A program made the position numbers and the translations under genes. Positions 3,217 through 31,468 of a stretch of 42,643 nucleotides of DNA are shown piece by piece. Numbering within the stretch: the stretch's first letter is position 1; every line of letters starts with the position of its first letter. This DNA is from Anaerolineae bacterium (GTDB taxonomy: Bacteria > Chloroflexota > Anaerolineae > 4572-78 > J111). The notes under the pieces are model-generated. The model was not told the DNA's origin and made no database searches. It saw nothing but the letters and a program-made list of their open reading frames with translations. The stretch is taken from contig JAFGDY010000039.1 of the NCBI GenBank assembly GCA_016931895.1, positions 1 through 42,643 on the forward strand, written 5' to 3'.

Positions 3217-5172
3217 TTACTCAATTTGTAAACGATATCCCTGACCTTTGACCATAAGCAGATAACGTGGATTATCGGGGTTAGGTTCAATGCGAAGGCG
3301 CAGCCTTCTCACTAAGGCATTGATACGACCATCCAATTGGTAGTCTCCTGCCTCGTATTTTTCATCAAACACAGTCTCTACAATTTCTTCTCGCCCCACC
3401 AATTTGCCAGGCTGTTGATACAGGCAGCGGAATAATTTTAGCTCTTGCCCAAACAACTCAATTTTATTATTCCCCAGCCATACTACTTCATCCTCATCAA
3501 AACGTAATTTGCCGCCAGGTGAGGGAGAGTCAAATGGCTCATGTAACCGATGGGCCAGCATGCCGGCCGCCAGAAGTAGATGCGCCCCCCGTATTCGTTC
3601 GACCTGCGTAAAGATTTTGTTGGGGTCATGATGGAGAATAATTCCGATGACCCATACCAATAGACCGGCATAATAAGGCAACGGATCATAGTGACCAATT
3701 TCGCCATAGGCGCTCCGTCGAATTTGGCCAATGAGAACCAGGCTCTTTCTTAAGTCGGCAACCACCTCTCGTTCAGGCAATGGCCCATCGAGCCGACTTG
3801 GTTTCACCAGACATTCTTCAAGATCTTGCCAGGCTATCAAGTCAGGAGCTTGACTCAGTTCAAAGCGGACGATCGCCTCCAAACACACAAAATCCCACCA
3901 ATTGGGCATATATCCTGCGTATGCAAAATCAGTCAACCAAGTTTGTCGTCCGTAAATATCCACCAAGATATTATCGGCAGTAATTTGACCCGGCGAAGTT
4001 TTACACACAATTGGCCGGTCATACTCTATAGGGGTGTAGATGGTGGCAATAGGATTAGGACAAATTAGGGTCGCTTGACTGGATAAGTGAAAAACCAAAG
4101 ATTGGTCGGTATATTCCACTTCAATGGCATTCAACGGCCTTACCGCTTGTACAAGAGCGGCTAACCTATGTTCTACTTCAAGGCGGGAGGCTGGCTCTTC
4201 CAACCCAATCCGCCCACGATATAACAACATTAAATCATTAGTGACAATACGCTGCCCTTGCTGGTGCCACGTTGCCAAAACTTCGATAACGTGATCAAAA
4301 GCTACTTTAAGCGGTCGTTCCTTACTTCCCCCAAATAATTGTCGTAGAGATTGAATTGCCTCCAGGTTGGTTGTGGGTAAAACATAAGTTGCTGCGCCAA
4401 AATGGACTGACCTGGTCATTTTGAATTTAGCACCTTGAAATGTGTCGGGAGCCAAATTCAGCAGATGTTCTACTTCTCGCTCCAGCTGGTTACGTTCGCC
4501 GCAGAGCAAAATACGCGGGTCCAGTACGCCTTGTGGCGATTGGGCCAAAACCGGCAGACAGAAGCGCTGCCTATCATGCCAAAAGAGTGTCCCCACTCTG
4601 ATCTGCCGGTAATCGTGGAATAGCTGGCGAAAGAGATCCTTCAATTCGTCAGCTCGATGCAGGAGGGTCTCGGTTAGAGGATCTGGCTGTAATAAACCTA
4701 CAAGGTATAGAAATAAACCTTCTCGATGGTCCGACTGAATATCTAAATCTGTATTCAGACGAACATATTTGGCGATAGCCTGTTCCACGGCTTGGATCAT
4801 GATTTGGGGGCCTTCTTGTTTAGAACGGAAATCTATGGCCGGCGGTAAGCCATCTATTGCCGGCCCCAGCGCCTCACGTACATCCTGATAAGAGGGGAAA
4901 TTTGTAAGAATGATTTTGGGTATCAATTCATAGGTGGAATCTTTAGCTACCGTCAAACCTGTAGTGTCTTTCTCGTCGTCATCGTTAACCAGGCGAATAT
5001 CCAAAATAGCCAAATGGATGTGAGCTGTAACCAGCAGGTGTCGGGCCTGCTCCGGCGTATGCGCCTTGATCACTCGATAACCGGCCTCCTCTAAAAATTC
5101 GGCCCGGGTTTCCAGAAAATCAGGATCATTATCAACTAAAAGAATCGAATAAGGTCTCCTCTCGGTACTCAC
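3217..5172 (-). CDS. Response regulator with phosphotransferase-like middle domain and OmpR-type DNA-binding domain
   Basis: 651 residues. Residues 8-135 are a receiver (acidic D14/D16, phospho-acceptor D58, T90, K118). Residues 555-650 are an OmpR/PhoB winged helix. The long middle part (about 190-545) has a segment, residues 393-416, that lines up with the catalytic loop and metal site of aminoglycoside-phosphotransferase or kinase-like folds. N401 and the Asp of TDF (D415) are kept, but the catalytic Asp position carries Gln396 and the usual HGD reads PGQ, so it is probably inactive. It resembles the 'ternary complex associated' kinase-like domains described in bacterial conflict and signalling proteins; this is from memory, not a search. 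The GTG start has AGGAG 7 nt upstream. It probably takes phosphate from the neighbouring kinases and may act at the repeats at 3147-3203. Confidence 0.9.
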   Translation of the reverse strand: MSTERRPYSILLVDNDPDFLETRAEFLEEAGYRVIKAHTPEQARHLLVTAHIHLAILDIRLVNDDDEKDTTGLTVAKDSTYELIPKIILTNFPSYQDVREALGPAIDGLPPAIDFRSKQEGPQIMIQAVEQAIAKYVRLNTDLDIQSDHREGLFLYLVGLLQPDPLTETLLHRADELKDLFRQLFHDYRQIRVGTLFWHDRQRFCLPVLAQSPQGVLDPRILLCGERNQLEREVEHLLNLAPDTFQGAKFKMTRSVHFGAATYVLPTTNLEAIQSLRQLFGGSKERPLKVAFDHVIEVLATWHQQGQRIVTNDLMLLYRGRIGLEEPASRLEVEHRLAALVQAVRPLNAIEVEYTDQSLVFHLSSQATLICPNPIATIYTPIEYDRPIVCKTSPGQITADNILVDIYGRQTWLTDFAYAGYMPNWWDFVCLEAIVRFELSQAPDLIAWQDLEECLVKPSRLDGPLPEREVVADLRKSLVLIGQIRRSAYGEIGHYDPLPYYAGLLVWVIGIILHHDPNKIFTQVERIRGAHLLLAAGMLAHRLHEPFDSPSPGGKLRFDEDEVVWLGNNKIELFGQELKLFRCLYQQPGKLVGREEIVETVFDEKYEAGDYQLDGRINALVRRLRLRIEPNPDNPRYLLMVKGQGYRLQIE

Positions 5173-5287
5173 TGCTCAACTCCTATTGATGGCTAAATCT
5201 ATTCCCCCAGTTCGGGAAGACTGAGGGGGGTAAACTATTTCCATTGCGCAAGTCATATCCATTCAGTGACAGCCTGAAGATAAACGC

Positions 5288-5668
5288 CTATTGAGATTGA
5301 GCAGGGGAGGAGATATCCAAGGCTGCCTTAATTTTGGAAAGAAGTTCGTCTTGGTCAAATGATTTGCGAATATAGTCAGTTGCTCCGGCCAAAAGTACTT
5401 CTCTGGCTCTTTGCCAGGTGGGAGAAGCTGTGACAACAATAATATGGGACGCGGGTTGCATTTTGCGCAAATTGGATACTAATTGCGCCACATTATCAAC
5501 TGCCCCTGCATCTATAATAATTGCGGTGTACTCTTGCTCAATACCTTGCTGTTCTGCCTGTTTTTCTGAAATTACTTGTAATGTTCCCAGAGACAATACA
5601 CTTTGTTCTAAAACTAAGGGCCACAGTGTTTCAGTTTTCTCGCCAATTAATAAAAAATGGTGTCCCAT
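5288..5668 (-). CDS. Single-domain degenerate receiver protein
   Basis: 126 residues with the CheY-like alternation of strands and helices. D53 in IIIDAG sits at the phospho-acceptor position, T80 in VVTAS at the switch Thr/Ser and K102 in RKSFD at the conserved Lys. The acidic pair after strand 1 that binds Mg2+ is missing: LLIGEKTE offers only one Glu. Phosphorylation may therefore be weak or absent, and the protein could be a phosphate-independent partner of the kinases. The ATG start has AAGG 8 nt upstream. It lies 31 bp after the giant kinase and 115 bp before the response regulator gene, so it probably belongs to the same transcript. A GC-rich imperfect hairpin at about 5203-5229 lies in the gap after it. 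Confidence 0.85.
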   Translation of the reverse strand: MGHHFLLIGEKTETLWPLVLEQSVLSLGTLQVISEKQAEQQGIEQEYTAIIIDAGAVDNVAQLVSNLRKMQPASHIIVVTASPTWQRAREVLLAGATDYIRKSFDQDELLSKIKAALDISSPAQSQ

Positions 5669-5699
5669 AAAGTAAACCTTATCTTGTGACCGATGGATT

Positions 5700-8600
5700 C
5701 TACTGTTTCTTCACGGGCAACCAGATAACCATCTTGGTGCCCTTTGGCCCTGTAACGGCCACTCGTACTTCGCCGCCATAAGTCTGAACAATCGTCTGAA
5801 CCATCAATAAACCCATCCCTAACCCTTTAGCTTCATCAGGTTTCTGAATCGGCTCGTATCCAATTTTGTCTCTAAGCTCCTGAGGAATTCCTGAACCGGT
5901 GTCAGAAACGGATATTTCAACTCCGGCGTTGGTCAATTGGGTGCCAATAATAATCTCTTGTATTTTACACCCATCTACAGCTTTTACCGCATTGTCTACC
6001 AAAATATCAAATGCTCGGCGCAACCATTCAGGACTCAACCATAAGGTCAGGTGAGCCGGAAGCTGAAGATCAAAACAAAGTACAGTTTTTTTATAGGGGT
6101 CATTTTGCCATAGTTGTTTGGCTCGCTCACTGACCAACTCGTTGATTGAAACTAATTCCATTCCGGCTTCAGTAGACAGGGGAGGGGTAATAGGCTTTTT
6201 CAGAATTTGCGCGGCCAAACGTTCAATTGTGGCGGCTCGTTTACTGATTTTGGTTTGTTCAGAGTGAGAGGATAGCTGCTTAAAATCGCGGTGCAACAAC
6301 TGGGCCTGTTCCTGGATGGTTAAAGCATGTTTTTCTATTGTGTGTCGCCAGGCGCTACTGGTCATGCCCATCCAGGCCACCGCAGTTCGCGCTCCTACCA
6401 GCCCTTTCGTCCGGCGCAAATCTTCATTTGTTTGTTTGAGTTGTTCATATAACCGTGCATTTTCAATCACCGCCGCGGCCTGACCGGCAAAAATACGCAA
6501 GAGCCGAGCATCATCTTCGTTAAAAGGCATTCCATCTAATTTATTAGAGGCCTGAATAATGCCTATATTCCGCCGACCTACGACCAGCTTTACCAGCAAG
6601 GTGTCCCGCAAACCGGCTTCTTTGATAAGATCATTCAACCCCAATGCAGTTACCAAAGGGTCTCCTTCTGCTTCGTTGAGAATCAAATGAGGCATTGTCT
6701 CCCATAAGGTGGCAAGATCATCCTTGTCCAGGGGGATGTGATATTTTTGACCAAGCGCATCGGGGACACCATACAATGGCAACTGGCAAACCAGCTTCCT
6801 CTCCACCTCATCATAAAGGAGGATAGCGCACATCTGAACATTTGTTAATTCTGCGATACTCTCGTTTACTCGCTGATATACTTCTTGAATGTCAGTTAAC
6901 GAACTGATTGTTTGCGAAATTCTATGCAGACCGGAAAGTTCCTTGTTTCGCTGCTGTTCGGCCTGGTACAGCCGCGCATTCTCAATGGCGATGGCGAGTT
7001 GGTCGGCCATTGTTTGCAAAATGGCAATGTCTTCTTGAGAGAAGGCGGCTTCTTTAACACTCTGTACCGTTAAGGCGCCAATACACTGATCTCGGCTGAT
7101 GAGCGGCAGAGACAACTCGGAACGAGTTTTGGGTAAGTAGGGGTTATCAAAATGAACATCATCCTTATCAACATCGGGCGCAATGCGCGCTTGCCTATGG
7201 GCTGCACTCCAGCCCACCATCGAATGACCCCCGATGGGTAATTTATGCTTTTCTTTGAGCATTTTTTGACCAGCTTCATCCGTACCCGCCCGCAACACCA
7301 GGTATTCACCCGTCTCATCCGTCAGGAATAACCCAACATAATACACATTGAATCTCTGGCGAATAAGATTAACCGCCTGGCTGATTAGCACGTCGGGATC
7401 AAGAATGGTACTGGTTGACTTGGAGACTTCGGCCACAGTTTGCAGTTGCATCCGGCGGTGTGACATATCGGCCAACAGGCGAGCATTGCTAATGGCAATA
7501 GCCGCCTGGTAAGAGAAAAGCTCGATGTTATTGAGTTCCTCACCGGTAAAACGATGGTGCGAGCGATAATTGATGAACATGACCCCCACTTTTTGTGAAC
7601 CAACCTTGAGGAGAATACTGACTGATGACTTGATACCTTCCCGTTGCACAAAAACGCCGCCAACAATGGGGTCGGATGACGCATCTTCAGCGATATAGGG
7701 TTTATCCAATGCCAAAATATTTCGCACTACCGACTCTCTTACCACTGAGCCTATCTTGAGGACTTCTTCCTCATTATGCACGCCAAACATCGTTGGCGGA
7801 AACCCAAATTCATCCCGGGTTTGATCATAAGTGTAGAGCGTAACGGCGTCACACTGAAGGGCCTCGTAGGTACCTTTGACAATGGAATGAAGCGTACTCT
7901 GTAGGTTTTCCAGTACGCTCACTCTGGCTACAATTTTTGCCGTATCTCGCGTGCGGCTCACTTGTTCTAGTAACCTGGCCTTTTTAAGAGTAAGAGCGGC
8001 GTGGTTGGCAAAGGTTTCCAGGGTTATTTTATCTTCACGGCCAAAGGTGCGAGGTAGTTTGTAATTTACGTATAAGACGCCCAAGGTTTCCTGGCCCACC
8101 TGTAGAGAAATCCCTTGAAAAGCCCGTACCCCAATGGTGCCGCGCAAGCCGTGCCCAATTGGGCCAAGAAAAGCATACTCCGGATCATCAGTGTTGGATA
8201 TAGCCACGTATTTTCGTTCCATCACCACTTCAGCCGTACCGCCTGAACGTGGTTCATCTTTTCTGAACCGTTCTACAAGCTTGGGCCGGATGCCTTCAGT
8301 AATCAATTCGTCGGGCAGAAAGGTATGGCGAATATCGTCATAAGACCAGATCACGACAGAATCGGCTTCCAAGACCTCTTTGGCGCTCTTTACCACCTGT
8401 TGCAAAACTTCTTGCACACTCGCTACACTGGCCAACTTCTCGGCAGCCTGATGAAGGTGCTCCAGTTCACGCATCCGACGGGTGTTGTCATAGGCAATCG
8501 CGGCCTGGTTTGCGTAAAGCCGCAGGGCTTCCGTCTCGGTTGGTAGAAAGATGCGGGGAACACGATAATGAATCCACATCACCCCAATATTGCAGTCGCG

Positions 8601-11600
8601 CACCCCAAATGGCACGCACGCTGCCGCCCTAACCCCATCGCTCAACATGACTGGATTGACTCTATCGGGAAGTTTTTGGACATCTTCTGTGTACCAGGGT
8701 TCTCCCGAAGTCATCACCTGCACCGAAATCCCATCAGGCCTGATCATCTCACCCGTATCCAGACCGTCACCAAAACCAACGGCCACTAAATCAGTTAGCT
8801 CCCCTTTGCGCGAGATCAGGATTATTTTAGACCGCCATCCAGCTAAAGCCTGGCAAGCTTCCTCAACAACAATCCGCAGGGTTTGCTTTGGCTCCATAGC
8901 CGAGATGATGGCGCTACCCGCTTCATATAAAGAGCGAAGTTGTTTGAGTCCCTTTTGAATCTCTTCAAAGTACTGCGCATTAGTTACAGCAATAGCCACT
9001 TGATCGGCAAAAGTAGCGAGCAATTCCAGATCATCGGCTTGAAATACACCGGCTACATCCAGGTTATCCAAAGACAAGGTGCCGATTATCCGCCCTCGAA
9101 CGTTGAGCGGCACACATACCATAGATTTGTGCAACGGCACCTCTGGATGATTGAACCGTTTGTAACGAGGATCCTGGTGTGCATCTGCCACCACTGTGGG
9201 TTGGCGATGTTGGAACACCCAGCCCGCAATGCCTTCGCCAGACCTTAGGCTGAGGGCATCAATGACCTTTGGGCTGTAGCCAAACGTGTTGGCCCGCAAC
9301 CACAAAGTATCAGTTAACTCATCATAGAGATAAAGGGTGCCGCGTTGCGCCATAGGAAAAGCTTCCACAGTCAAACTAACAATTCGCTCCAATACTTCAT
9401 CCAGTTCCAAAACGCCGGTAATGACCTGGCTAACCTGGATGAGGGCGCGCAATCGTTCCTCCAATAGAGTCACCTGGCGCAAGTCACGAATATATCCGGC
9501 CTGTCCAATAGAACGGCCATCTTTATCTCTGATCAACGTACCGGAAAGCAAAGCCGGGATGCGAGAGCCGTCTCGATGTTTAAAATCTACATGCCAACCC
9601 TTAACACTCTCTCCCCGGTTTACTGCCTCAAAGATTTCCTGAGCCTTTTCCACATCCAGGTATAGCCGCGCTGCAGTTTTGTTAATTACCTCTCCCGATG
9701 CCCATCCTAACATTTCTTCGGCCCGCTGGTTAAATATGTTAATCTTTTTATTTTGGTCAATAGCTATCACGGCATCATTAGCATTTTCAACCAGGGCCTC
9801 GCGCCAGTTTTTGGCCTTAACCATTTCCGAAAACAAGCGGGCATTCTCTACTGCAACTGCAACGTGAGCGGCAAATACACGGCAAAGTTCAACTTCCTCT
9901 GTCGAGAACCGGCGCAAATGGCCGACCGCATCAAGGCTAAAAGAACCTAATAATTCGTTGTTTTTGGATATTACCGGGATAATGAGGAGAGATTGAATAT
10001 CAAAATTCAATAGAATATCCCGGACCACGCCCATGGATTCGGCGGCATTGACCTGTTCAATAATAAGGGGCTGGCGGGTTTTTATAAGTTGCTCCTCAGC
10101 CGGTATATCTTTTATGGGGATATTCGTATTCACAATGCCCAATTCCGGGTATTCCGCTGTTACGCAGCCTTGCGTGTAATCCAAGTCAAAAAGAACCAGG
10201 CCGCTATGGTCGGCGCTGAAAAATTCAACGGCATCCTGACAGGCGCTCTTTAGCACCTCGTTTAGGTCTAATGATGAGTTAATCGTTAAAGCTAAATTTT
10301 GTAACGTTTCCAAATTTCGGGCCCGATGGTTAGCCTCTTCAAACAGTCGCCCGTTCTCAATGGCCAGAGCGGCCTGGGTGGCAAAAGCTCGGGCCAGCCG
10401 GGCATGCTCTTCTATGTAAAAATTTGGTTGATGTTTGTCTAGCGTGATCATTCCAATAAGTTGGTCCCCAACCAACATGGGCACTCCCAACCAGCTACGG
10501 ATGCCGGCTTGAACATGAGGTTCTTTTAAGAATACTTCATATTCGGCAGGCGCATTTGAAACAATAAAACATTCTCGGCGGCGAACCACCTCTCGATTAG
10601 GATTCTTCTCGCCATTCACCAGAAACGAAAGCCCCACAATTTCAGGCAGATTAGGAAACCCACAGCCACCAATAATCTCGAGCCGATCTCCTTTTAGCAA
10701 TTGGACTGAGGCGCTATCATAAGGCACTACCCTCTGTAGTTCTGTCAGAATTCGTTCAAAAATCTCCCCTGGTTTCAGGGAGGTTGTCAGCACTAAGGCC
10801 GTTTCTCGTAAAGTTTCAGCCTCCTGGCGACGTTGAGCTTCAGCTTCAAACAAGCGGGTGTTTTCTAAAGCAATAGCAGCCTGATCGGCCAATAATTTTA
10901 ATACCCGCTGTTCATATATCCCAAAGGCCTCACGATGGGTGCTATAGGCATATAATACCCCTTGGTTCCCTGTTTCACCAGGGATGGGCACGCCAATAAA
11001 AGACTTCACCCCAGCCTGAAGTAGCTGCTCGTCTAATATTTCATCAGCCTGGGTCTCTACGTCGGCCAGATTATATAACTCACCGGTTTGAATGATTTGC
11101 CGGGTCAGTAGGGTATTTTTGAGATGGCGTTTCCATTTTATCGTTGCCTGACCGATAAGACTGCCAGAGTCATATTGCACCTGGTTTATCGTAGGATTCA
11201 TCAAGACGACTGAACAGGATTCTGCGCCAACCAATCTGGATACAGCCTCAACAATTACCTCTAATGTCCTGGCCAGGTCCAAGCCACTCACCATGGTATT
11301 AGTAATCTTTAAGATTGTTGAGAGTAAGTCCCGTTCCTGGCGTAGACGGGTTTGTTCTGCAGCCAGGCGAATAGTTATCCCCAACTCGTCAAGATTTAAG
11401 GGTTTGGTCAGGTAACGATAGGCTCCTGCTTGCAAAGCAACCAAGGCTCGATCCATGCCCCAGCCGGTAAAGACAATACATTCTGTATCAGGATAAACTT
11501 CCTTGATTTTTTGCATTAATTCGATGCCACTCGGTTCTGGGTCAATCTCTGGCGCCGGTATGAGCAAGTCATCAATCAAGGCCACATCGTAAGCTCGTTT

Positions 11601-11747
11601 AGCCGCGCAAACTCGTTGCCAGGCTTCCTCTCCATTTGCGGCCGTATCTACCTGATAGTGATACTTGTCTCGAAGACGTTTTGCCAATGGTTCGCGTAAG
11701 CTGCTCTCATCTTCCACCAGTAACACTCTTAACAAGGCGTCTTTCAT
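5700..11747 (-). CDS. Giant receiver/nine-GAF/PAS/HATPase hybrid sensor protein
   Basis: 2015 residues from the preferred ATG at 11745-11747, which has AGAGG upstream; a TTG 16 codons earlier has no such site. Order by eye: receiver (about 5-140, with DD in LIDDLL, FTGW and LTKP), GAF1 (145-300), GAF2 (310-470), GAF3 (480-640), PAS (650-765), GAF4 to GAF9 (about 770 to 1760), helical linker and HATPase_c (about 1890-2010). Each GAF ends in an A-[IV]-x-N-x-[RQ]-like signalling helix. The HATPase has N (DNAVKA), G1 (DTGSGIP) and G2 (GLGMGL) boxes, so it should bind ATP. The dimerisation helix lacks a usual H-E-x-x-N/P box; the nearest His is in AWRHTI. Cytoplasmic, with no membrane helices. It lies 52 bp after the S1-kinase gene. 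Likely an integrator of several small-molecule or redox signals; ligands unknown. Confidence 0.93.
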   Translation of the reverse strand: MKDALLRVLLVEDESSLREPLAKRLRDKYHYQVDTAANGEEAWQRVCAAKRAYDVALIDDLLIPAPEIDPEPSGIELMQKIKEVYPDTECIVFTGWGMDRALVALQAGAYRYLTKPLNLDELGITIRLAAEQTRLRQERDLLSTILKITNTMVSGLDLARTLEVIVEAVSRLVGAESCSVVLMNPTINQVQYDSGSLIGQATIKWKRHLKNTLLTRQIIQTGELYNLADVETQADEILDEQLLQAGVKSFIGVPIPGETGNQGVLYAYSTHREAFGIYEQRVLKLLADQAAIALENTRLFEAEAQRRQEAETLRETALVLTTSLKPGEIFERILTELQRVVPYDSASVQLLKGDRLEIIGGCGFPNLPEIVGLSFLVNGEKNPNREVVRRRECFIVSNAPAEYEVFLKEPHVQAGIRSWLGVPMLVGDQLIGMITLDKHQPNFYIEEHARLARAFATQAALAIENGRLFEEANHRARNLETLQNLALTINSSLDLNEVLKSACQDAVEFFSADHSGLVLFDLDYTQGCVTAEYPELGIVNTNIPIKDIPAEEQLIKTRQPLIIEQVNAAESMGVVRDILLNFDIQSLLIIPVISKNNELLGSFSLDAVGHLRRFSTEEVELCRVFAAHVAVAVENARLFSEMVKAKNWREALVENANDAVIAIDQNKKINIFNQRAEEMLGWASGEVINKTAARLYLDVEKAQEIFEAVNRGESVKGWHVDFKHRDGSRIPALLSGTLIRDKDGRSIGQAGYIRDLRQVTLLEERLRALIQVSQVITGVLELDEVLERIVSLTVEAFPMAQRGTLYLYDELTDTLWLRANTFGYSPKVIDALSLRSGEGIAGWVFQHRQPTVVADAHQDPRYKRFNHPEVPLHKSMVCVPLNVRGRIIGTLSLDNLDVAGVFQADDLELLATFADQVAIAVTNAQYFEEIQKGLKQLRSLYEAGSAIISAMEPKQTLRIVVEEACQALAGWRSKIILISRKGELTDLVAVGFGDGLDTGEMIRPDGISVQVMTSGEPWYTEDVQKLPDRVNPVMLSDGVRAAACVPFGVRDCNIGVMWIHYRVPRIFLPTETEALRLYANQAAIAYDNTRRMRELEHLHQAAEKLASVASVQEVLQQVVKSAKEVLEADSVVIWSYDDIRHTFLPDELITEGIRPKLVERFRKDEPRSGGTAEVVMERKYVAISNTDDPEYAFLGPIGHGLRGTIGVRAFQGISLQVGQETLGVLYVNYKLPRTFGREDKITLETFANHAALTLKKARLLEQVSRTRDTAKIVARVSVLENLQSTLHSIVKGTYEALQCDAVTLYTYDQTRDEFGFPPTMFGVHNEEEVLKIGSVVRESVVRNILALDKPYIAEDASSDPIVGGVFVQREGIKSSVSILLKVGSQKVGVMFINYRSHHRFTGEELNNIELFSYQAAIAISNARLLADMSHRRMQLQTVAEVSKSTSTILDPDVLISQAVNLIRQRFNVYYVGLFLTDETGEYLVLRAGTDEAGQKMLKEKHKLPIGGHSMVGWSAAHRQARIAPDVDKDDVHFDNPYLPKTRSELSLPLISRDQCIGALTVQSVKEAAFSQEDIAILQTMADQLAIAIENARLYQAEQQRNKELSGLHRISQTISSLTDIQEVYQRVNESIAELTNVQMCAILLYDEVERKLVCQLPLYGVPDALGQKYHIPLDKDDLATLWETMPHLILNEAEGDPLVTALGLNDLIKEAGLRDTLLVKLVVGRRNIGIIQASNKLDGMPFNEDDARLLRIFAGQAAAVIENARLYEQLKQTNEDLRRTKGLVGARTAVAWMGMTSSAWRHTIEKHALTIQEQAQLLHRDFKQLSSHSEQTKISKRAATIERLAAQILKKPITPPLSTEAGMELVSINELVSERAKQLWQNDPYKKTVLCFDLQLPAHLTLWLSPEWLRRAFDILVDNAVKAVDGCKIQEIIIGTQLTNAGVEISVSDTGSGIPQELRDKIGYEPIQKPDEAKGLGMGLLMVQTIVQTYGGEVRVAVTGPKGTKMVIWLPVKKQ

Positions 11748-11799
11748 TTCGCTATGCCTCTTGATGGTGCATATTCTACGTAATCGCTTCAACAAACCT

Positions 11800-14094
11800 T
11801 TATGAACTCTGTGGCAGTTCTACCCGGAAGGTAGTACCCATTGGAATAATGCTTTCCTCAACTACAATCCCCCCACCCATGGACTCTACCAAGCTTCGCG
11901 CAATGAATAATCCCAGCCCTGTCCCGCCAGGTCGGCTTGAAAAACCAAGAGCAAAGATGCTTTCCCAAAGTTGGCTATGAATGCCAGGGCCAACGTCGGT
12001 AAACCTTATCCTAACGGGACATTCTTTGTTTGTTTCCCAATTAGTGGTAATAAACAATACTCGTTGACCATCAGGCCACTGTTCCGTTTTCCGGGCAATC
12101 TGTTGGATTGCATTAAGTATCAGATTAGTAAATATCTGTTGTAAGCGCACTATACCACCCTTGACCGTAGGTAAATCTAAAGTAAGTTCAGTTTTGACCC
12201 GTACCCGGTAGTGGTGAATAGTAGGGCGCAACAATTTCACCGTTCGTTGCACTACCTCATTAACATTTACCTCTTCTTCGTATTCAGTTCGCATCAATTC
12301 TCTAAAAAGCTCTACCGTGCTTTTTAGATCCAGGGTTACTTTTAACAATTGGTCAGTAGTGTTTTCCAACTCAGTTACGCTGAAAGAATCTGTAGACCCT
12401 CCTTGTTGCCAACTCGCGCAGTCCGCTCGTAAGTTACGAAGCTGGATTTCTAAACCCGAAATTTTGTTATATACCTCATGGCTAAATCCAGCGGCCAATT
12501 GGCCACTCAAAAGGAGAGGATTAACAGCCTCAATACGCTGTTCTAAGGCTTGACTTTCCAGGGCGACACTAAATAATAGGGCCATTGCCCGGGCATCTCG
12601 CAGGCGATAACGAGCAAAAGCATTTGCAGTACGGTGGAATAAGAAGAGGGCATGGTGCACCTCGCCACCCGCCGAAATGGGTACGCCCAAACACGACTCA
12701 AAGACCACCAGGTCTAACAGCTTATCAAATCGGCGCATCGCTTGCTGTGAGACACAGGCTTCGAAAATATCACCCCGTTCACAAATCACGTCTTTTACGG
12801 GACTCTCTCCCAAAGCATAGATTGCTTCCTGATCCAAGGGCAAGTGTCCAACTTGGACCACAATTGATATCTGTTGCGAATCTGGGGCCAGATAAAAAAT
12901 CAAACCCTGTTCAGCCTGAGTAAACCGAACCAACTCTCGCAAACCGGCCTCAAAACGAAGCGGAAGAGGCAACCCGCTATGCATTGTCCCTGTTAGTTGC
13001 TGAAATACATTGGGCGATTCTTTAGGTTTTACCTTTGAGGTTGACTTCCAAAAGTTAGATATTTGGCCTTGTCTCAACAGAATGAATGATTCGTAAATTT
13101 CTTCTAAGTTCAAGGGTTTAGCAAAAATATCGCTGATGCCCAATGCCTCCAACTCTTCACTCCGTTGGGCAATCCATTCTGGGATGCTCATGACAGCCAC
13201 CTTAGTATTTGGCGCTACTTGTACCAGTGTTTTGATAAAGTCTAAACCATCTTTGCCGGATAGGTCCAAATCAATTAAAGCTACGCCGTATGTTCGCTGA
13301 TATAAGTAGGATAGCGCTTGTTCAACTGATCCAGCTCCTTCGGCAGCAAAGCCCAAGCGGCTTAACCATGCTACCAGAGGCTCTCTTACCTCGTCATGAT
13401 CGTCTACTACCAAGACCCTTCCTATCTTCTCAACCAAACTTGAGTCAACATCTCTTGACCCTACTGTATGAGGGGCAATATCGTCTCTTTCAAAATCACC
13501 CTTTACCCCTTCTCCTTTAATACCTTCTCTTTGGCCCAGAGAATCCAGCATCTGCCCCACCAAGATTTCATGCTTCATCTGTTGCCGAATACTAAGCTTT
13601 ACTCGTCTCTTCTGTTTGTCAAGAAAGGTTATCATTGCCTTCACATGGTCACCAACCCAAAAGAGAGCTTTGGGTTGCTTCACCGACCAGGGCGCCAATT
13701 CGGCCAAAGGAATAAACCCATCTATGCCAGGTACGATTTGGACATATACTCCCCTTGCTGATAGATTCTTAACCGTAGCCGTGATCGTATCCCTCACGTT
13801 GTAGGACCGCAGAAATGTATCCCAGGGATCCGGTTCTGCCCGACGGACACTCAACTCTAAATTTTGATTAGGCGTAGCCAGACCAATAACTAGGCCTTTT
13901 ATTTCGTCCCCTTCTGATACTATCTGATCAGGGTCCAGATTACCAGCCTGGGTCAACTCTCGTCGGCGGATGAAAGCCTGGGTCCCATCCGATAAACGAA
14001 CAAAGACTCCAAAGGGAAAAATTTGTTCAACATGAGCAACAATCATCTGGTTAATTTGATAAACATTATCTTTGTAGTTACTCAACTCTAACAC
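11800..14094 (-). CDS. S1-S1-receiver-GAF-histidine kinase fusion
   Basis: 764 residues. Two S1 OB-fold repeats occupy 14-84 and 99-170 (FPFGVFVRL..QAFIRR and LSARGVYVQI..IDGFIPLAEL, each closing with an LS[VI]R end). A linker follows, then a receiver at 225-345 (D231/D232, D275, K326), a GAF-like domain at about 375-515, a HisKA-like helix with H539 in FSHEVYNKIS, and HATPase_c with N661, G1 DVGPG (700-704) and G2 GTGLGLF. The kinase core looks complete. S1 domains bind RNA in ribosomal protein S1, RNase E and PNPase, so an RNA- or ribosome-linked signal is suggested but not shown. The start is uncertain: the GTG at 14092-14094 opens the frame just ahead of the first S1 repeat but has no clear ribosome-binding site. 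It is first in the transcript and 52 bp before the giant kinase. Confidence 0.92.
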   Translation of the reverse strand: MLELSNYKDNVYQINQMIVAHVEQIFPFGVFVRLSDGTQAFIRRRELTQAGNLDPDQIVSEGDEIKGLVIGLATPNQNLELSVRRAEPDPWDTFLRSYNVRDTITATVKNLSARGVYVQIVPGIDGFIPLAELAPWSVKQPKALFWVGDHVKAMITFLDKQKRRVKLSIRQQMKHEILVGQMLDSLGQREGIKGEGVKGDFERDDIAPHTVGSRDVDSSLVEKIGRVLVVDDHDEVREPLVAWLSRLGFAAEGAGSVEQALSYLYQRTYGVALIDLDLSGKDGLDFIKTLVQVAPNTKVAVMSIPEWIAQRSEELEALGISDIFAKPLNLEEIYESFILLRQGQISNFWKSTSKVKPKESPNVFQQLTGTMHSGLPLPLRFEAGLRELVRFTQAEQGLIFYLAPDSQQISIVVQVGHLPLDQEAIYALGESPVKDVICERGDIFEACVSQQAMRRFDKLLDLVVFESCLGVPISAGGEVHHALFLFHRTANAFARYRLRDARAMALLFSVALESQALEQRIEAVNPLLLSGQLAAGFSHEVYNKISGLEIQLRNLRADCASWQQGGSTDSFSVTELENTTDQLLKVTLDLKSTVELFRELMRTEYEEEVNVNEVVQRTVKLLRPTIHHYRVRVKTELTLDLPTVKGGIVRLQQIFTNLILNAIQQIARKTEQWPDGQRVLFITTNWETNKECPVRIRFTDVGPGIHSQLWESIFALGFSSRPGGTGLGLFIARSLVESMGGGIVVEESIIPMGTTFRVELPQSS

Positions 14095-18255: not shown

Positions 18256-19596
18256 ATGAAGTATCACATTTGGACCGCCGGTTGTCAAATGAACGTGGCC
18301 GACTCCCAGCGGGTGGGATCGGAACTGGAAAAACTTGGCTACCGTTACACCGGCAATTACCGCCAGGCCGACGTGGTGGTGCTGAACACCTGCGTGGTGC
18401 GCCAGAGCGCCGAAGATAAGGCGACCGGCTTTCTGTGGAGTCTCAAACCCATTAAGGAAGCTAAACCGGATAAAACCATCGCCCTGATGGGCTGCATGGT
18501 GGGGGTCAGGGGCAACGGCAAGCTGGCCCAGGCTTTTCCCCACGTAGACGTGTTTATGCCGCCCAGCCGGCCGGACCCGCTGGTTGACTTTTTACTGGCC
18601 CGCCAGAGCGAGCAGGCCACACTGGAATATCGTCACAAATTACAAAACGAGGAGCTAGCCCTGGCCTTGCCCCGGCGCCAACAAAATAATCTGGTAGCGG
18701 CCTACGTGCCCATCATTTACGGCTGCAATCACGTGTGCGCCTTCTGCGTCATCCCTTCCCGGCGCGGGCGGGAACGCAGCCGGCCGGCAGGTGAGATTGC
18801 CGCCGAGATTCGCAGCCTGGCGGCCCAGGGCGTGCGCGAAGTGACCCTGTTGGGCCAAATTGTGGACCGGTACGGGTTTGATATTCCCCACGGCCCGCGC
18901 CTGCCCGACCTGCTGCGGGTTATTCACCAGATTGACGACCTGTATCGTCTTCGCTTTTTGACCAGCCACCCCAGCTACATGACCGACGAACTGCTAGACA
19001 CGGTGGCCGAACTGCCCAAAGTGTGCGAACACATCGAAGTTCCCCACCAGGCCGGCGATGACGAAGTGCTGGCCCGCATGAAACGGGAATACGACATGGT
19101 CGGCTACTACAATTTAATTCGCCGCATCCGGGAACGGATGCCCACCGTCTCCATTGCCACCGACGTCATTGTCGGCTTCCCCGGTGAAACGGAAACCCAA
19201 TTCCAGCATACCCTGGACACCCTGGCCGAATTAAAACTGGATATTTGCCACGTAGCCATGTACTCGCCGCGGCCCGGCACGGTTTCGGCCAAAATGATGC
19301 CGGATGACGTGCCGCCGGAAGAGAAAAAACGCCGGTTACAAGCAGTCAATAATTTGCAAGAGCAGATTGTGGCCGAGATCAACGCCCGGCTGTTGGGCCA
19401 AACCGTGGAAATTCTGGTCGAAGAAAAACAGCGCGGGCGCTGGAAAGGCCGCACCCGCACCAACAAATTAGTTTTTTTTGAAGATGACGCTCACCAATGG
19501 CAGGGCCAACTGGTAAACGTAAAAATCACCTGGACCGGCCCGTGGAGCATGCGCGGCATTATTGAGGTGAGGGAACCGGCACCTGGAACTTCATGA
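18256..19596 (+). CDS. miaB: tRNA-2-methylthio-N6-isopentenyladenosine synthase (MiaB family)
   Basis: 446 residues from the ATG at 18256, which has AGGAG about 10 nt upstream; the open frame extends 17 codons further without such a site. A radical-SAM methylthiotransferase: the N-terminal UPF0004 domain carries C10 (AGCQMN), C46 (NTCVV) and C80 (MGCMVG) for the auxiliary 4Fe-4S cluster. The radical-SAM triad is C157, C161 and C164 (CNHVCAFC). A TRAM domain with GQTVEILVE closes the protein. MiaB adds a methylthio group to i6A37 in tRNAs that read UNN codons. The CQMN/ADS N-terminus favours MiaB over MtaB or RimO. Its 3' end overlaps the convergent NHL-glycosyltransferase gene by 38 bp. Confidence 0.93.
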   Translation: MKYHIWTAGCQMNVADSQRVGSELEKLGYRYTGNYRQADVVVLNTCVVRQSAEDKATGFLWSLKPIKEAKPDKTIALMGCMVGVRGNGKLAQAFPHVDVFMPPSRPDPLVDFLLARQSEQATLEYRHKLQNEELALALPRRQQNNLVAAYVPIIYGCNHVCAFCVIPSRRGRERSRPAGEIAAEIRSLAAQGVREVTLLGQIVDRYGFDIPHGPRLPDLLRVIHQIDDLYRLRFLTSHPSYMTDELLDTVAELPKVCEHIEVPHQAGDDEVLARMKREYDMVGYYNLIRRIRERMPTVSIATDVIVGFPGETETQFQHTLDTLAELKLDICHVAMYSPRPGTVSAKMMPDDVPPEEKKRRLQAVNNLQEQIVAEINARLLGQTVEILVEEKQRGRWKGRTRTNKLVFFEDDAHQWQGQLVNVKITWTGPWSMRGIIEVREPAPGTS

Positions 19597-22500
19597 CCCG
19601 GTTATTGTCAGAGTCGGCTACCAGCACATGGCCCTCGATGTCAACCGCCAGGCCAACCGGCAGGGCAAATGAGGCCCGGTCCTGGCCATATTGGCCCCAG
19701 GTTACCAGAACGTTACCGTTACTATCGTAAGCAATCACCCGGTAGCCTTCGGGGTCGCTGATGAAAACCCGATCTTGGTTATCAATGGTCAGGTAGGGTT
19801 TGTTGACCACACTTTCCCCTTCCCAGCCCACCACTTCCCATTGAATGATAGGATTGAAGTTAGAATCAAATTTCTGGACGCGCCGGTTCCAGGTATCGGC
19901 CACATAGAAGTTGCCCTGGCTGTCAATATCAATGCCCACGGGTTCTTCAAACGTGCCGGGCACAATACCCCCGCCACCCCAGGCCTGTAAAAATCCCCCG
20001 GTGGGGGTAAATTTTTGCACCCGTTTATTGCCGGTATCGGTAACGTACACGTTGCCCTGGGCGTCAAGGGCAATATCGCGCGGTCCCCAGAAGTTGCCGG
20101 GTTCGGCCTGCGGGTCGGTTTGCACATTGGCAAAGGCGCCAAAGGCAGCTAAAAATTCACCGTTGGCGGAAAATTTTTGGATACGATGATTCCAGGTATC
20201 GGCCACGTATACCGTGCCATCCGGGGCCACGGCAATACCCCACGGCTCGTTGAACTGGCCCGGCGCAGCACCTTCGCTGCCCCAGATAAAGAGGAAATTG
20301 CCCGCCGGGTCAAAAACCTGGATCCGGTGATTGCCGCTATCGGCCACATAGATGCGCCCGTCGGGGGCTACGGCCAAGTTGCGCGGGGTTACAAATTGAC
20401 CCTCTCCCTGGCCGTTGCTGCCCCAAATTTGCAGGGCATCGGTTTCGGCTCGTTTACCTTCGTAGGGGTCCAGGCTGGGGGCCTGCACCAATTCAATGGG
20501 ACCACTCTGGTAGTCCCATATATCGTTAAGCACGTCTTTGCGCACGTAAAGGTAAAAACGATGCACATAGGGCCACTCGTTGAGTTCGTAATCCTCATAT
20601 TCCCGGTAAAACCAGATTTTCCACAGTTTGCGCCAATTGTCCTTAACCGTTTGCCGGCGGGCGGCCTGGGCCTCGGCGGTGTCGGCGGCCAGGTCTGCCG
20701 GTGGCGGGCCGATAACGTAATTTTGCCATAACTTGGTCAAGGTTTGGTCTTTATAATCCTCAATCGGCCACCACACCAGCCGGTAGCGGTAGCGGGTATA
20801 TCTATCGCCCAAAAAGGGTTTGGCCTTGCTCTCATTGGCCGAGCCGACAATGACAATGGGTGAATCCAACGCCTCGCGGGTGGGATTTTCGCCATAGTAG
20901 GCCCGGTTGGGATACTGGCGCATGTACCACTCCAGCGGCCATGTGGAATCATTGTCGTAGGCTACTTTGATCTGTTTGTCACCCACCGTGCGGCGGGAGA
21001 TGTCGTCAATCTGGTTCAGCACCAGTTTCACATCCGGCGAAGCGTGGGCATAAACCATCACCTCATTGACATAATCATAATTGATATAATTGAACATCCA
21101 GGCAAAACGGATGGTCAACAGGCTGAGTACCAAAAGCAGGGTAACAAAAGCGATGCGTAATGCCGCCCCCAGCCCCATTCTGACACTGTAATACCAGACG
21201 ACTACGGCCAGACCCAGCAAAACAATCAAGGCCAGGAAAAATTGGAACGTTTCCTGAATATCGTTGATGGATTGTCCCTGGAATGGTTCTGCGGTAAATA
21301 GAGCAATCAAGGTAGGAATAGTCAAGAGCAGCCCCCCGCCCAGGATAAGCCCGCCTTTTTGCCGTGCTTCCGACCAGTTGAAACGACGCAGCACTGTCTG
21401 GATAACGTGCGCGGCCAGGAACACAAAGGGCAGCGTGAGATGAACGGACAGCCAGGGCATTTTTTCCCCGGCCCAGCTATAAATCACCACGGCCAGCAAG
21501 GTCCAGTAAATAACAAAGGCCGCAAACGTTCCCCCATCCGAAGGCCAGATGGCGCGGGGAGAGGACGCATCCGCTGGCTGGGCTGTCTCTGAGTTGGTAT
21601 GGGCCGGAAAGCCTCTGGGACGAAACAGGTACGCCAGGCTACCGCCGAGTCCAATCAGCACCGGCAAAAACTCATACATGGGCACCAGGAAAAGGTAATA
21701 ATACCAGGGCTGTGAACCGCGTTCTACTTCCTGCTGGCTGAGCCAGTAGTGCAAGGCGCCATACGTGCCCGTAGCCAGGCCGCCAATATTGGAGAAAAAG
21801 GTGGTATACAGGAGCACAAAAATGATGGCGGCCGCCACCAAAGCCTGCATTAGCACCGGCAGGCGTTCCGAGAGGCTAACGATCATCGCCGTGACCGGCC
21901 GGTTGTTTCGATCCACGCCAAGTTGGATCAAAACCGCGCCAATGAGCAGGCCAATCAGCATGATGGTCATGCCAATATAGTCCCAGGCATCAAACCCTGC
22001 TGCTGCTTCAGTCCCTGCCGCCGGCAGCAAGGTATCGGCCTGGGCGGCCAAAATGGCAATAACAATAACCAGCAATAGAATCAGGCCCACCAGAAAAACA
22101 TTAAGCCACAACCGCGACGATTTGACGTTTTCCCAAACCCAGGCCCAGAAGATAAAGGTGAAACCAATAAACCCATGAATAAAGGCCACCTCTTTGGTGG
22201 TCAACATAAAACTTATGGCTATAGTGCCAATAAATAGCCAGCGGTTGGACCGGGTGCGCATGTATTGAAAGAAGGCCAGCACCATCAGCACAGTCCACAC
22301 AGAAATGTAAATATCGTTGCGAATGTAGCGGCTGTAGTAAAGCAAGCCTGGCGATATCAGAATCATAAACGAAGCGACCAGCGCGCCCAGCCGGCCCAAC
22401 CAGGGCCGGAACCAATACGGCAGCATCACCAGGGCAATGCCAAAGAGGGCGGTTGAGAGCCGGGCCGTAAAATCATTATCGCCAAACAGAAAATACATGA

Positions 22501-22762
22501 GCGCGGTGATGTGAAACAGAAACGGCCCATGCATCAAGGGATCATGATGGTAGCCTTTACCCGCGTAAAGATTCCAGGAGTAGAGCGTGTGCAGGCTTTC
22601 ATCATGACTCATTACCCGCGTGCCCAAATCGTAAAAACGGGTGATAACGGCCAGGAGGAAGAGAATGATATACAGCGCCACTTCCCAATTGAGGGTGAAG
22701 GTGTTCAAAAGGGGCAGGTCTAAGCCGCTTTTTTTGTTGATCGTATTGTTTTGAACGGTCAA
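19559..22762 (-). CDS. Agl23-like membrane glycosyltransferase fused to NHL beta-propeller
   Basis: 1067 residues from a TTG at 22760-22762, chosen because AAAAGGAG lies 6 nt upstream. An ATG at 22807 has no ribosome-binding site. The N-terminal two thirds is a polytopic GT-C-fold protein with about a dozen membrane helices. It has the Agl23-type signature (GTRVMSHDESLH, with D54 and E55 at the catalytic acidic pair, then HDPLMHGPFLFH). The C-terminal 280 or so residues hold six NHL repeats of the type P..IAV.PDG.VYVADT.NHR[IV]QKF, which should fold as an extracytoplasmic beta-propeller. GT39-like enzymes transfer sugars from lipid-phosphate donors; the propeller may bind glycan or protein. 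It follows the GT39-like gene and probably shares its transcript. Confidence 0.92.
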   Translation of the reverse strand: MTVQNNTINKKSGLDLPLLNTFTLNWEVALYIILFLLAVITRFYDLGTRVMSHDESLHTLYSWNLYAGKGYHHDPLMHGPFLFHITALMYFLFGDNDFTARLSTALFGIALVMLPYWFRPWLGRLGALVASFMILISPGLLYYSRYIRNDIYISVWTVLMVLAFFQYMRTRSNRWLFIGTIAISFMLTTKEVAFIHGFIGFTFIFWAWVWENVKSSRLWLNVFLVGLILLLVIVIAILAAQADTLLPAAGTEAAAGFDAWDYIGMTIMLIGLLIGAVLIQLGVDRNNRPVTAMIVSLSERLPVLMQALVAAAIIFVLLYTTFFSNIGGLATGTYGALHYWLSQQEVERGSQPWYYYLFLVPMYEFLPVLIGLGGSLAYLFRPRGFPAHTNSETAQPADASSPRAIWPSDGGTFAAFVIYWTLLAVVIYSWAGEKMPWLSVHLTLPFVFLAAHVIQTVLRRFNWSEARQKGGLILGGGLLLTIPTLIALFTAEPFQGQSINDIQETFQFFLALIVLLGLAVVVWYYSVRMGLGAALRIAFVTLLLVLSLLTIRFAWMFNYINYDYVNEVMVYAHASPDVKLVLNQIDDISRRTVGDKQIKVAYDNDSTWPLEWYMRQYPNRAYYGENPTREALDSPIVIVGSANESKAKPFLGDRYTRYRYRLVWWPIEDYKDQTLTKLWQNYVIGPPPADLAADTAEAQAARRQTVKDNWRKLWKIWFYREYEDYELNEWPYVHRFYLYVRKDVLNDIWDYQSGPIELVQAPSLDPYEGKRAETDALQIWGSNGQGEGQFVTPRNLAVAPDGRIYVADSGNHRIQVFDPAGNFLFIWGSEGAAPGQFNEPWGIAVAPDGTVYVADTWNHRIQKFSANGEFLAAFGAFANVQTDPQAEPGNFWGPRDIALDAQGNVYVTDTGNKRVQKFTPTGGFLQAWGGGGIVPGTFEEPVGIDIDSQGNFYVADTWNRRVQKFDSNFNPIIQWEVVGWEGESVVNKPYLTIDNQDRVFISDPEGYRVIAYDSNGNVLVTWGQYGQDRASFALPVGLAVDIEGHVLVADSDNNRVMKFQVPVPSPQ

Positions 22763-22840
22763 GGTGCGCTCCTTTTCAGGTAAATGGTAGACAGTAGACA
22801 GGGCCATGTGGGAAAGAAGAAAGGTCTACTGCTGAATATT

Positions 22841-24709
22841 TTAATTTTCGGGCAGGCGTAACCATAGAACAACTTTATCCCCGGTGGGTAACTCGTTGGT
22901 ATGGCGGTAAATTAGCCACGTGATCAATGTTTTTGACGGCAAACCGGCCGGCGACCAACGAGCGTTCAGGGCAAAGTCCTGCCCAAAATAGGCCTGATCC
23001 AAACCCAATTCGTCGGTAGGGGGGGTAATGATGGCCGTGGTAGGTGTATTGAGGTTGGAGGCAATCGCCAGGTGGCGGTAGTTTCGTAATTGCCATTGCA
23101 GGGCCGGGCTGGCCACTCTGGCCAGGGTTACGTCCAGCAAGGTTTCATCACCCACCCGGCGAGCCGATTGGTTGGCCAGGGTGTCGGCCAACAGTTCCAG
23201 GCCGGTTGCCGGTGGGGTTCCGGCCAGGGGTTGGTAGGGCAGGTAACGCAGCGATCCAAAATTTAAACGCCAGCCAATGCTAACGGCGCATAACACGCCC
23301 AGCGTTACCCCAACCAGGCCCAGACCCCGCAGGGCAATTTCGGGGCCGTTCATAAACCAGAAAAAGCCAAATATAAATAGAAAAAGAAGGGGGGGGATGG
23401 TTAACACTATCAATTGCATCCAAATAGCATTTTGGCAAAGCCAGGGGATGGGGAAAATACAATCACGCGTAAGCCAGCCGGTCACCAGAATATAGCCAAT
23501 ACTGGCTATCACCAGGCCAACGGCCAGGATAAGGCCTTCGTTTTGCCAGGCACCATGCTTTTGGATACCTGCCCATAGTTCGGCCAGGGCAAAAGCAGCC
23601 AAAAAAGCCAACGGCGTTACCAACAAAATAACATTGCCGGTGGGACGGCCGGCCATGAGCACGTCAAGCACCAACAAGCCCACAAACCAGAGGCTAAAAC
23701 TGACCATCAACAGGCTGCGGCGCACCAGGGTTATGGCCAGGCCGGCCAGGCCGCTAAAAACCAGCAACGGCTCGTAAATGGTCAACAAAAATACGGCGTT
23801 GAAACCGGCCTCGGGATGCGGGGCAAAACTGAAACGGTTGAACCAATCAGGCAAAGCGCCGGTCAAGACGCCCAGACCGCTCACGTTGAATAGCGCAGTA
23901 GTAGAGAATAAAACCAGGGCCACCACAAAAAAGATACCGGCCTGACCCCAGGGAGGAATTGAACCCGTATCGGTAGCCTTATCTTCAGCCTCGCTCCTTT
24001 CTTTCTCCAAAGTTTTAAAAGCCGGAAACTGGACAAAGATAATCAGGCCAAAAACTAACACGATGGAAAAGGCCATTGGCCCGGCCGCAAACATCAAAGC
24101 CAACCCTACCGCCGCCAGTAGAAACCAACGCCGTTGTCTGCCCGTAGCCCAATTGAAAAAGCCGCTCACCACCAGCAAGGTCCCCACTGCCACCCCGATT
24201 TCGGGATTGAGCGTGCGCGAGAGATAGATAGCGCCGGGGGAAATGGCCAGTAGAAATGAGGCCAGTAAGCAGACTCGCGCGCCCAGAAGACAGCGCATGG
24301 TCAGGGGCAGTAAAACCAGAGCCATGCCCAATAATGCAGCCGCGAGTCGCGCCGAAGCATCGCTGCTGCCAATCAGGAAAAAAGTGAACGTGTTCAGCGT
24401 CACTAACAGGGGGCTGTAATATTCCGCTGGGGGCAGGTCGCCGCGATAAAGGGCCAGGGCCAAGAGGCTTTGCTGCGCTTCCACGTTTGAAAGGGGATAG
24501 GTTCCCAAATTCCACAACCGCAGGCCCAGGGCCAGGATAAAAATGAGCGCGTAGAGAAAGATTTCCAGAGATAACCAGGGCAGAATAACAGGTCTGGTTT
24601 CAGAATCAGGAATTATAACCTCCTGAATTTCTGTTTCCGGCCCTGGCTTTTCCACTATTTCCGTTTTAAAAGGATGAGGTCTGATTTTTCTGCGTATCTT
24701 TTTGGTCAA
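22841..24709 (-). CDS. Divergent GT39-like (PMT/ArnT-type) membrane protein
   Basis: 622 residues with about 12 membrane helices after a basic cytoplasmic N-terminus. The first loop reads YPLSNVEAQQSLLAL where PMT/ArnT-type GT-C enzymes have a [HY]xDE motif. Glu77 is kept but the preceding Asp position is Val76, so activity is doubtful. The later region (EPLLVFSGLAGLAI, NVILLVTPLAFLAAFAL) follows the usual topology of this group. The start is uncertain: the only sensible start in frame is TTG at 24707-24709, one base after a TATAAT (24711-24716) and with no ribosome-binding site. A GTG 18 codons downstream is the alternative. It lies upstream of the Agl23-like gene (78 bp) and probably works in the same envelope glycosylation pathway. 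Confidence 0.85.
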   Translation of the reverse strand: MTKKIRRKIRPHPFKTEIVEKPGPETEIQEVIIPDSETRPVILPWLSLEIFLYALIFILALGLRLWNLGTYPLSNVEAQQSLLALALYRGDLPPAEYYSPLLVTLNTFTFFLIGSSDASARLAAALLGMALVLLPLTMRCLLGARVCLLASFLLAISPGAIYLSRTLNPEIGVAVGTLLVVSGFFNWATGRQRRWFLLAAVGLALMFAAGPMAFSIVLVFGLIIFVQFPAFKTLEKERSEAEDKATDTGSIPPWGQAGIFFVVALVLFSTTALFNVSGLGVLTGALPDWFNRFSFAPHPEAGFNAVFLLTIYEPLLVFSGLAGLAITLVRRSLLMVSFSLWFVGLLVLDVLMAGRPTGNVILLVTPLAFLAAFALAELWAGIQKHGAWQNEGLILAVGLVIASIGYILVTGWLTRDCIFPIPWLCQNAIWMQLIVLTIPPLLFLFIFGFFWFMNGPEIALRGLGLVGVTLGVLCAVSIGWRLNFGSLRYLPYQPLAGTPPATGLELLADTLANQSARRVGDETLLDVTLARVASPALQWQLRNYRHLAIASNLNTPTTAIITPPTDELGLDQAYFGQDFALNARWSPAGLPSKTLITWLIYRHTNELPTGDKVVLWLRLPEN

Positions 24710-24888
24710 GATTATACCGTTTGTGATTGATTGAAATTTTGTAGGTAAACCCTAAAGGTTGTTGAACAAATCGTTGGTCCAGGCGTCTTTAAGATTTTTT
24801 GCCCCGGAAGTTTCTAAACGGGTATCATTATAGCACAACTTTTGGCTTTGTTCATAAATAAAGCCGCATATTGCGCGCTTGTTCCTGT

Positions 24889-25410
24889 TTACGGGCCGAT
24901 CTGGCCCCCCTTGTTCCCCATTGCCGGGGGCAGCGGGGACGGGCGGCCGGTCAGAGTGGGCTGAACCGGCGGCGCAGCAGGTGTATCTACCCCCATTAAA
25001 ACCTGGATAGACGAAATAGGCGTGGCCGAAGGCCGGGGCGTCGCCAAAAATGATTGGGGGCTGACCCAGGCAGGCGACTCGGCGGAAGCGGCCGGCGTGA
25101 TTGTAACCAGGGGCGTGCTGGTGGCCAAAGGCTCCAGCAGGAAGATGCGCACAACGCCCTGGCGCAATACGTCAAAGATTGCCGCGCGCACCGGGGGCAA
25201 GGCTAATAAGGCTACTACGGCCAGCCCGGCCACCAACATGGTCCAGGCCAACCGCCGCGACGATTGAACAGCTTGCAGCTTTGGAGCCGCCAGGTGTTGT
25301 TTGACCCCTGCGACTATATTGGGTGTGGCCGGATAAGGAAAGTGAGGGGCCACTTTTTGCAGGTGGGCTGCCAACGGCTCAACGGATTGTTCAAATGATG
25401 GTTTGTTCAT
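24889..25410 (-). CDS. Single-pass membrane protein, probable anti-sigma factor
   Basis: 173 residues. A 50-residue cytoplasmic N-terminal part is followed by one membrane helix (AWTMLVAGLAVVALLALPPV, about 50-70) and a Pro/Ser/Thr-rich outer part with low-complexity TPLVTITPA and PRPSATP stretches. Its ATG overlaps the sigma-factor stop by four bases (ATGA), so translation is coupled. This layout is typical of anti-sigma factors that hold an ECF sigma at the membrane. The zinc-binding HxxxCxxC of the common ZAS type is absent, so the assignment rests on context and topology. It may belong to an unnamed anti-sigma class. Confidence 0.8.
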   Translation of the reverse strand: MNKPSFEQSVEPLAAHLQKVAPHFPYPATPNIVAGVKQHLAAPKLQAVQSSRRLAWTMLVAGLAVVALLALPPVRAAIFDVLRQGVVRIFLLEPLATSTPLVTITPAASAESPAWVSPQSFLATPRPSATPISSIQVLMGVDTPAAPPVQPTLTGRPSPLPPAMGNKGGQIGP

Positions 25411-25973
25411 ACCGCACGTTCTTCCTTTAAGGCCGGAAATTCTTTGCTTACCACCTCTCGGAGACGGTTCAGGACGCGGTGCAGGCGAGATTTAACTGTG
25501 CCGGGGGCGATGTTCATTATCTCGGCTGTTTCCGCCACCGATAGTTCCAAAAAATAGCGTAAGTAGACGATTTCCTGGTCAGCCTGGTTCAAATGCCGGA
25601 CCGCCTGCCAGAGGGTTTGGGCTTCCCATTGCTGGAGCTGCTGCTCTTGAGGCGTTGGCCCCACTGGTTCTGACTCTTGTTGAAACCACCGGCCCAGGGC
25701 CGCCAGATAACGCCCCACCGACCGGCGCCGGTTATGGGCCAAGTTGATGGTGATGCGATATAACCAGGGCCGCAGAGGCCGGGCCAGGTCAAAAAGATCC
25801 AGGGCGTAAAAAGCGCGGATAAAAGCTTCCTGGGCCACATCTTCGGCTTCGTCGGCATCGCCCAATAACAAATAGGCCAGGCGAAAGATAGCTTGTTGAT
25901 GGTGGTCAACCAGCATTGCCCACGCTTCCTCGTCTCCCTGGCGAGCCTGCGTGATGAAATCAGATTCGTTCAC
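25407..25973 (-). CDS. ECF-type RNA polymerase sigma factor
   Basis: 188 residues. Region 2 is at about 10-90 (DEEAWAMLVDHHQQAIFRLAY, DEAEDVAQEAFIRAF, RPWLYRITINLAHN) and region 4 at about 125-180 (LSVAETAEIMNIAPGTVKSRLHR, a helix-turn-helix for the -35 box). There is no region 3, as expected for ECF sigmas. The start is GTG at 25971-25973, and the only Shine-Dalgarno-like bases (GGAAAA) lie inside the 20-bp palindrome directly upstream. The downstream gene is the probable anti-sigma factor. On the minus strand a GGAAC at 26035-26031, 58 bp before the start, could be the -35 of an autoregulated ECF promoter. Target genes may include the flanking envelope genes; that is inference. Confidence 0.95.
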   Translation of the reverse strand: MNESDFITQARQGDEEAWAMLVDHHQQAIFRLAYLLLGDADEAEDVAQEAFIRAFYALDLFDLARPLRPWLYRITINLAHNRRRSVGRYLAALGRWFQQESEPVGPTPQEQQLQQWEAQTLWQAVRHLNQADQEIVYLRYFLELSVAETAEIMNIAPGTVKSRLHRVLNRLREVVSKEFPALKEERAV

Positions 25974-25976
25974 ATG

Positions 25977-31467: not shown

Positions 31468-31468
31468 T

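Follow-up and report, generated by a model that had tools for sequence, protein, structure and literature searches.

Can a bacterial sensor histidine kinase take its input from RNA or from the ribosome? The question is raised by a gene, here called gene 1, of an Anaerolineae bacterium of the phylum Chloroflexota (GenBank assembly GCA_016931895.1, contig JAFGDY010000039.1, positions 1 to 42,643, a stretch that we refer to as the window). Gene 1 encodes a protein of 764 amino acids (aa) in which two S1 domains precede a receiver (REC), a GAF domain and a kinase core. A first-pass annotation of the DNA had proposed this architecture and had pointed to H539, N661 and the G boxes of the kinase core; the former is borne out by a Pfam profile search and the latter by an alignment of the family, in which these positions are invariant. 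We confirm that S1-domain histidine kinases form a genuine family that is conserved among bacteria. The larger part of our finding was absent from that annotation, namely a conserved operon that links the kinase to TCAD9, TIR, CHAT and caspase modules. We favor a reading in which the kinase reads the state of RNA or of the ribosome and drives a conflict- or stress-type output through a phosphorelay, and give it a probability of roughly 0.45. Gene 1 and its parts are as follows.

11800..14094, minus strand: gene 1, S1-S1-REC-GAF-histidine kinase, 764 aa (open reading frame, Pfam, full-length homologues)
13831..14055, minus strand: S1 domain a (S1a), residues 14-88, with the family motif I-R-x-R-E (R43, R45, E46; Pfam S1, conservation)
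13576..13830, minus strand: DPW linker (residues 89-91) and S1 domain b (S1b), residues 92-173 (best Pfam S1 stretch 100-170; unbroken bS1 alignment across the linker)
13075..13422, minus strand: receiver domain, residues 225-340, with phosphoacceptor D275 and K326 (Pfam Response_reg, invariant residues)
12550..12972, minus strand: GAF domain, residues 375-515, with the family-invariant C468 (GAF_2 just below cut-off, conservation)
12280..12531, minus strand: dimerization and H-box region, residues 522-605, with H539 (invariant in the family alignment)
11806..12279, minus strand: HATPase_c domain, residues 606-763, with N661 and the G boxes (Pfam HATPase_c, conservation)

Gene 1 is a single uninterrupted reading frame with a GTG start codon. 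Upstream of this start the frame stays open for just 7 more codons (771 aa at most), which places the two S1 domains well within the gene. Pfam S1 matches in two stretches (E = 1.1e-19; 71 bits versus a cut-off of 22), both of which also exceed the cut-off in a genome-wide search (PF00575). Response_reg (E = 6e-17) and HATPase_c (E = 5e-17) are likewise recovered, and GAF_2 falls slightly under its cut-off (E = 2e-6; 28.4 bits versus 28.6). The HisKA model found no match to the gene 1 protein in the Pfam scan, although the H-box, GQLAAGFSHEVYNK, with H539 is clear by sequence. The core resembles ZraS in the PDB (E = 4e-15) and AtoS in NCBIfam (E = 2e-27), and its H-box, N-box and G-boxes, by which a histidine kinase is recognized, are intact. 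ZraS/AtoS-type sensor kinases share this core; gene 1 differs from them in a cytosolic-looking N-terminus, where S1-S1-REC-GAF replaces the usual sensor domains. A single-sequence AlphaFold prediction of residues 1-180 gave a predicted local distance difference test score of 34 and carries no weight for or against oligonucleotide/oligosaccharide-binding (OB) folds; the S1 pair is assigned as putative OB folds from profiles that match solved structures of ribosomal protein bS1.

We found homologues of gene 1 in 24 of the 396 genomes of the window's class, its own genome included; a second class of the same phylum yielded them in 5 of 158 genomes. Almost all of them are full length; the others are cut at contig ends, save for one in genome G110, where a shortened S1-S1-partial-REC gene adjoins a Mutator-family transposase gene (locus L079, 7378-8148 and 8567-9730) and is probably a relic of insertion. 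Every member with an intact N-terminus has both S1 domains. As the genome is a draft of 320 contigs, a frameshift, an assembly error or an isolated fusion of two genes has to be weighed. We consider such an artefact barely conceivable and regard it as ruled out, since the full-length architecture recurs across many genera and in two classes, together with conserved residues, a conserved operon and purifying selection; the frameshift that the first-pass annotation had named as its own refutation is excluded by open, full-length homologues of 25-60% identity from many genera. No relatives were found in viral contigs or plasmids, and a contig scan with a single-protein query and poor peptide patterns returned only a distant REC-GAF-histidine kinase match. 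We found no description of S1-domain histidine kinases in the open-licence literature, which is a weak absence.

In an alignment of 22 sequences, R45, E46, W91, D149, D275, K326, C468, H539, N657, N661, H706 and the main G-box glycines are invariant. The GAF cysteine C468 (FESCLGVP, window 12691-12693) is thus as conserved as H539, and a redox or ligand role for it is possible. Mean pairwise identity is 0.38 and 0.37 in the two S1 domains, 0.42 in the ATPase domain and 0.14 in the linker between the S1 pair and the receiver. The ratio of nonsynonymous to synonymous substitution rates in three close pairs is 0.06-0.42 for the S1 domains, within the range of the other domains, and 0.34-1.1 for the linker. 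As judged from these rates, the S1 pair is kept under purifying selection.

When a profile of the S1 pair was compared with the PDB, bS1 chains ranked first (E = 3e-77), followed by Rrp5 (4e-62), with PNPase and Tex far behind. The pair aligns without a break to domains D3-D4 of bS1, across the EDPW linker of the latter. Within its own genome, the pair is most similar to the 420-aa bS1 (E = 1.2e-51); lower in rank come a 300-aa protein that has two S1 domains and three matches with a single S1 domain. These comparisons support descent of the pair from a bS1-type tandem. The likeness to the central repeats of bS1 lies in the tandem S1 domains with an (E/D)PW linker and the continuous profile alignment, whereas gene 1 has only two S1 repeats, carries the I-R-x-R-E motif and is fused to a receiver, a GAF domain and a kinase.

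The canonical S1 RNA pocket consists of an aromatic residue, F, H, D and R, at positions that we take to correspond to those of the PNPase S1 domain. At these positions S1b of the window protein has R114, Y117, P129, D159 and R163/R164; it matches the classical pocket at Y117, D159 and R163/R164 and departs from it at R114 and P129. S1a keeps F28/F31, but has R43 at the usual His position, and across the family the motif I-R-x-R-E stands in place of the usual HxSE. The incomplete pocket of the window protein would suit an RNA-inactive S1 pair that serves as a protein-docking or dimerization module, with the GAF domains (C468) as the sensors of an otherwise ordinary multi-GAF two-component system. 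The I-R-x-R-E motif and the invariant W91, which suggest a different constraint, and the invariance of C468 fit this as well. It is countered by a near-canonical S1b pocket in 9 of the 24 aligned members and by the clear bS1 likeness of the pair, and we consider it rather improbable.

The gene stands at the head of a contiguous run on the minus strand (3217 to 14094), composed of gene 1, gene 2, a small receiver-like protein and gene 3:

5700..11795, minus strand: gene 2, giant kinase of up to 2031 aa, REC, nine GAF, PAS and HATPase_c (Pfam; adjoins gene 1 in relatives; conserved H-box histidine)
5288..5668, minus strand: small receiver-like protein, 126 aa (partial Response_reg match; a similar small gene at the same place in genome G016)
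3217..5172, minus strand: gene 3, REC, degenerate TCAD9 and winged helix, 651 aa (Pfam REC and Trans_reg_C; adjacent in relatives)
3538..4755, minus strand: degenerate TCAD9 (APH-kinase-like) region of gene 3, residues 140-545 (leave-clade-out profile, hhalign)

The true start of gene 2 may be an ATG near 11747. By clustering, gene 2 adjoins gene 1 in 23 loci; for gene 3 the count is 18. The second class adds further loci, and most of the remaining loci stop at contig edges. In one relative, L059, gene 2 has a different kinase end and an EAD7-REC-CHAT protein replaces gene 3.

The relatives of gene 3 are REC-TCAD9 proteins (PF19974, mostly 1e-15 to 1e-42). The TCAD9 of the window was missed by Pfam and was recovered by a leave-clade-out profile (E = 1.5e-18; hhalign probability 99.96). 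Its HGD motif is lost, and it is therefore predicted to be a pseudokinase. What follows TCAD9 varies among relatives: TIR in L066, CHAT and a ThsB-like TIR in L076, a caspase with GHG and DACHA motifs in L077, and a winged helix in L058, L061, G016 and G394. In several loci of clade 2 the following gene has a winged helix, with an AAA domain in addition in L068, L069 and L074. The TIR, CHAT and caspase C-termini, domains that serve as outputs in conflict and cell-death systems of bacteria, match defence models. A tree of gene 1 resolves two well-supported clades; the winged-helix form clusters around the window protein, and the rarer gene 3 outputs sit on separate branches.

The operon belongs to a wider setting. 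REC-TCAD9 genes are found in 45 of the 396 genomes of the window's class, and a gene with a histidine-kinase core lies beside or near REC-TCAD9 in 18 of the 22 fetched loci without an S1 kinase (L124-L143, L152, L153). The S1 kinase is therefore a specialized branch of kinase-to-REC-TCAD9 systems. TCAD9 has been associated with vWA-MoxR-VMAP conflict systems (PMC10910872), and gene 3 relatives resemble these in combining it with TIR, CHAT or caspase modules (PMC10910872, PMC7159879); the difference is that the TCAD9 of gene 3 carries a receiver and stands under histidine kinases. We do not assign the operon to the vWA-MoxR-VMAP ternary systems, as the partner genes are missing: MoxR, vWA and VMAP were absent from the window operon by Pfam, and none was identified among those neighbors that were scanned in relatives. 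A survey of vWA ternary conflict systems lists S1-like OB folds among effectors and no histidine kinases among the vWA-associated ones (PMC7159879); another paper describes S1 domains alongside OST-HTH in TERNS3 effectors, and receivers that occur without histidine kinases (PMC8195603).

We propose that the N-terminal bS1-like pair would dock on RNA or on the ribosome, and that the docking state would pass via the receiver and GAF domain to the H539 kinase. Phosphate, joined by input from the giant GAF kinase of gene 2, would then reach the REC-TCAD9 protein at its receiver; the C-terminal module of this protein would act as output, regulating genes through the winged helix here and exerting TIR, CHAT or caspase activity in relatives. 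The binding of RNA or ribosomes is inferred here, as are the direction in which phosphate moves and any part in conflict, defence or cell death. Sensing of RNA or the ribosome is plausible because the S1 pair is nearest to bS1, is no generic OB fold and is under purifying selection. The retained S1 pair, the invariant catalytic residues, the conserved operon and the exchangeable conflict-type outputs all support the proposal. A bolder form, in which the kinase would read RNA or the translating ribosome via its bS1-related domains and trigger REC-TCAD9 as an immune or cell-death system with winged-helix, TIR, CHAT or caspase output, we regard as unlikely; domain company is what suggests a defence function.

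Several points weigh against the proposed sensing and output. The window protein retains the classical RNA pocket in part, the full aromatic-F-H-D-R/K set is present in S1b of just the nine members noted above, and the S1 domains are mostly net acidic. PADLOC gave no convincing match to the window genes, only a marginal one to a receiver, and the window's own gene 3 has a winged helix as output, an unremarkable module in a response regulator. The S1 pair also lies next to a receiver, and an output role for it is possible. The kinases of the operon would, on that account, phosphorylate the receiver and thereby control whether the S1 pair binds mRNA or the ribosome, adjusting translation or transcript stability in an ANTAR-like manner. 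The direct succession of the S1 pair and a receiver with invariant D275 and K326 speaks for such a device, as does the bS1 relationship. ANTAR response regulators such as EutV couple two-component signaling to RNA recognition (PMC3369931); there, however, a response regulator uses the RNA-binding domain as its output, whereas the S1 domains of gene 1 head the kinase itself. Against an output role, gene 3 already supplies the operon with a clear output protein, placement at the N-terminus ahead of a GAF domain and a kinase is typical for inputs, and the sole stand-alone S1-S1-partial-REC gene is the shortened copy adjoining a transposase. An output role thus seems improbable to us, and we retain the sensing of RNA or the ribosome as our preferred reading. 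If this is true, a ribosomal-protein-type sensor on histidine kinases would make the state of RNA or translation a new class of input to two-component systems. The operon ties phosphorelays to TCAD9, TIR, CHAT and caspase modules, a link unreported in the vWA ternary survey (PMC7159879), and offers a concrete, testable case of conflict-type outputs under two-component control.

Some further observations concern the surroundings of these genes. The 126-aa receiver-like protein keeps the acceptor aspartate and the lysine, and its N-terminal acidic pair is seemingly lost. In G725 the other flank of the S1 kinase operon carries an additional TCAD9 protein, which also has an AAA domain (L078, 13399-15999). 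The window's own genome has four further TCAD9 genes (L148-L151; contigs C177, C146, C32 and C202), distant from its only S1 kinase. Elsewhere in the window, positions 19559-36157 encode a cluster of large membrane proteins, with two DUF2298 proteins, an NHL-repeat protein, PMT-type mannosyltransferase domains and an ECF (extracytoplasmic function) sigma factor.
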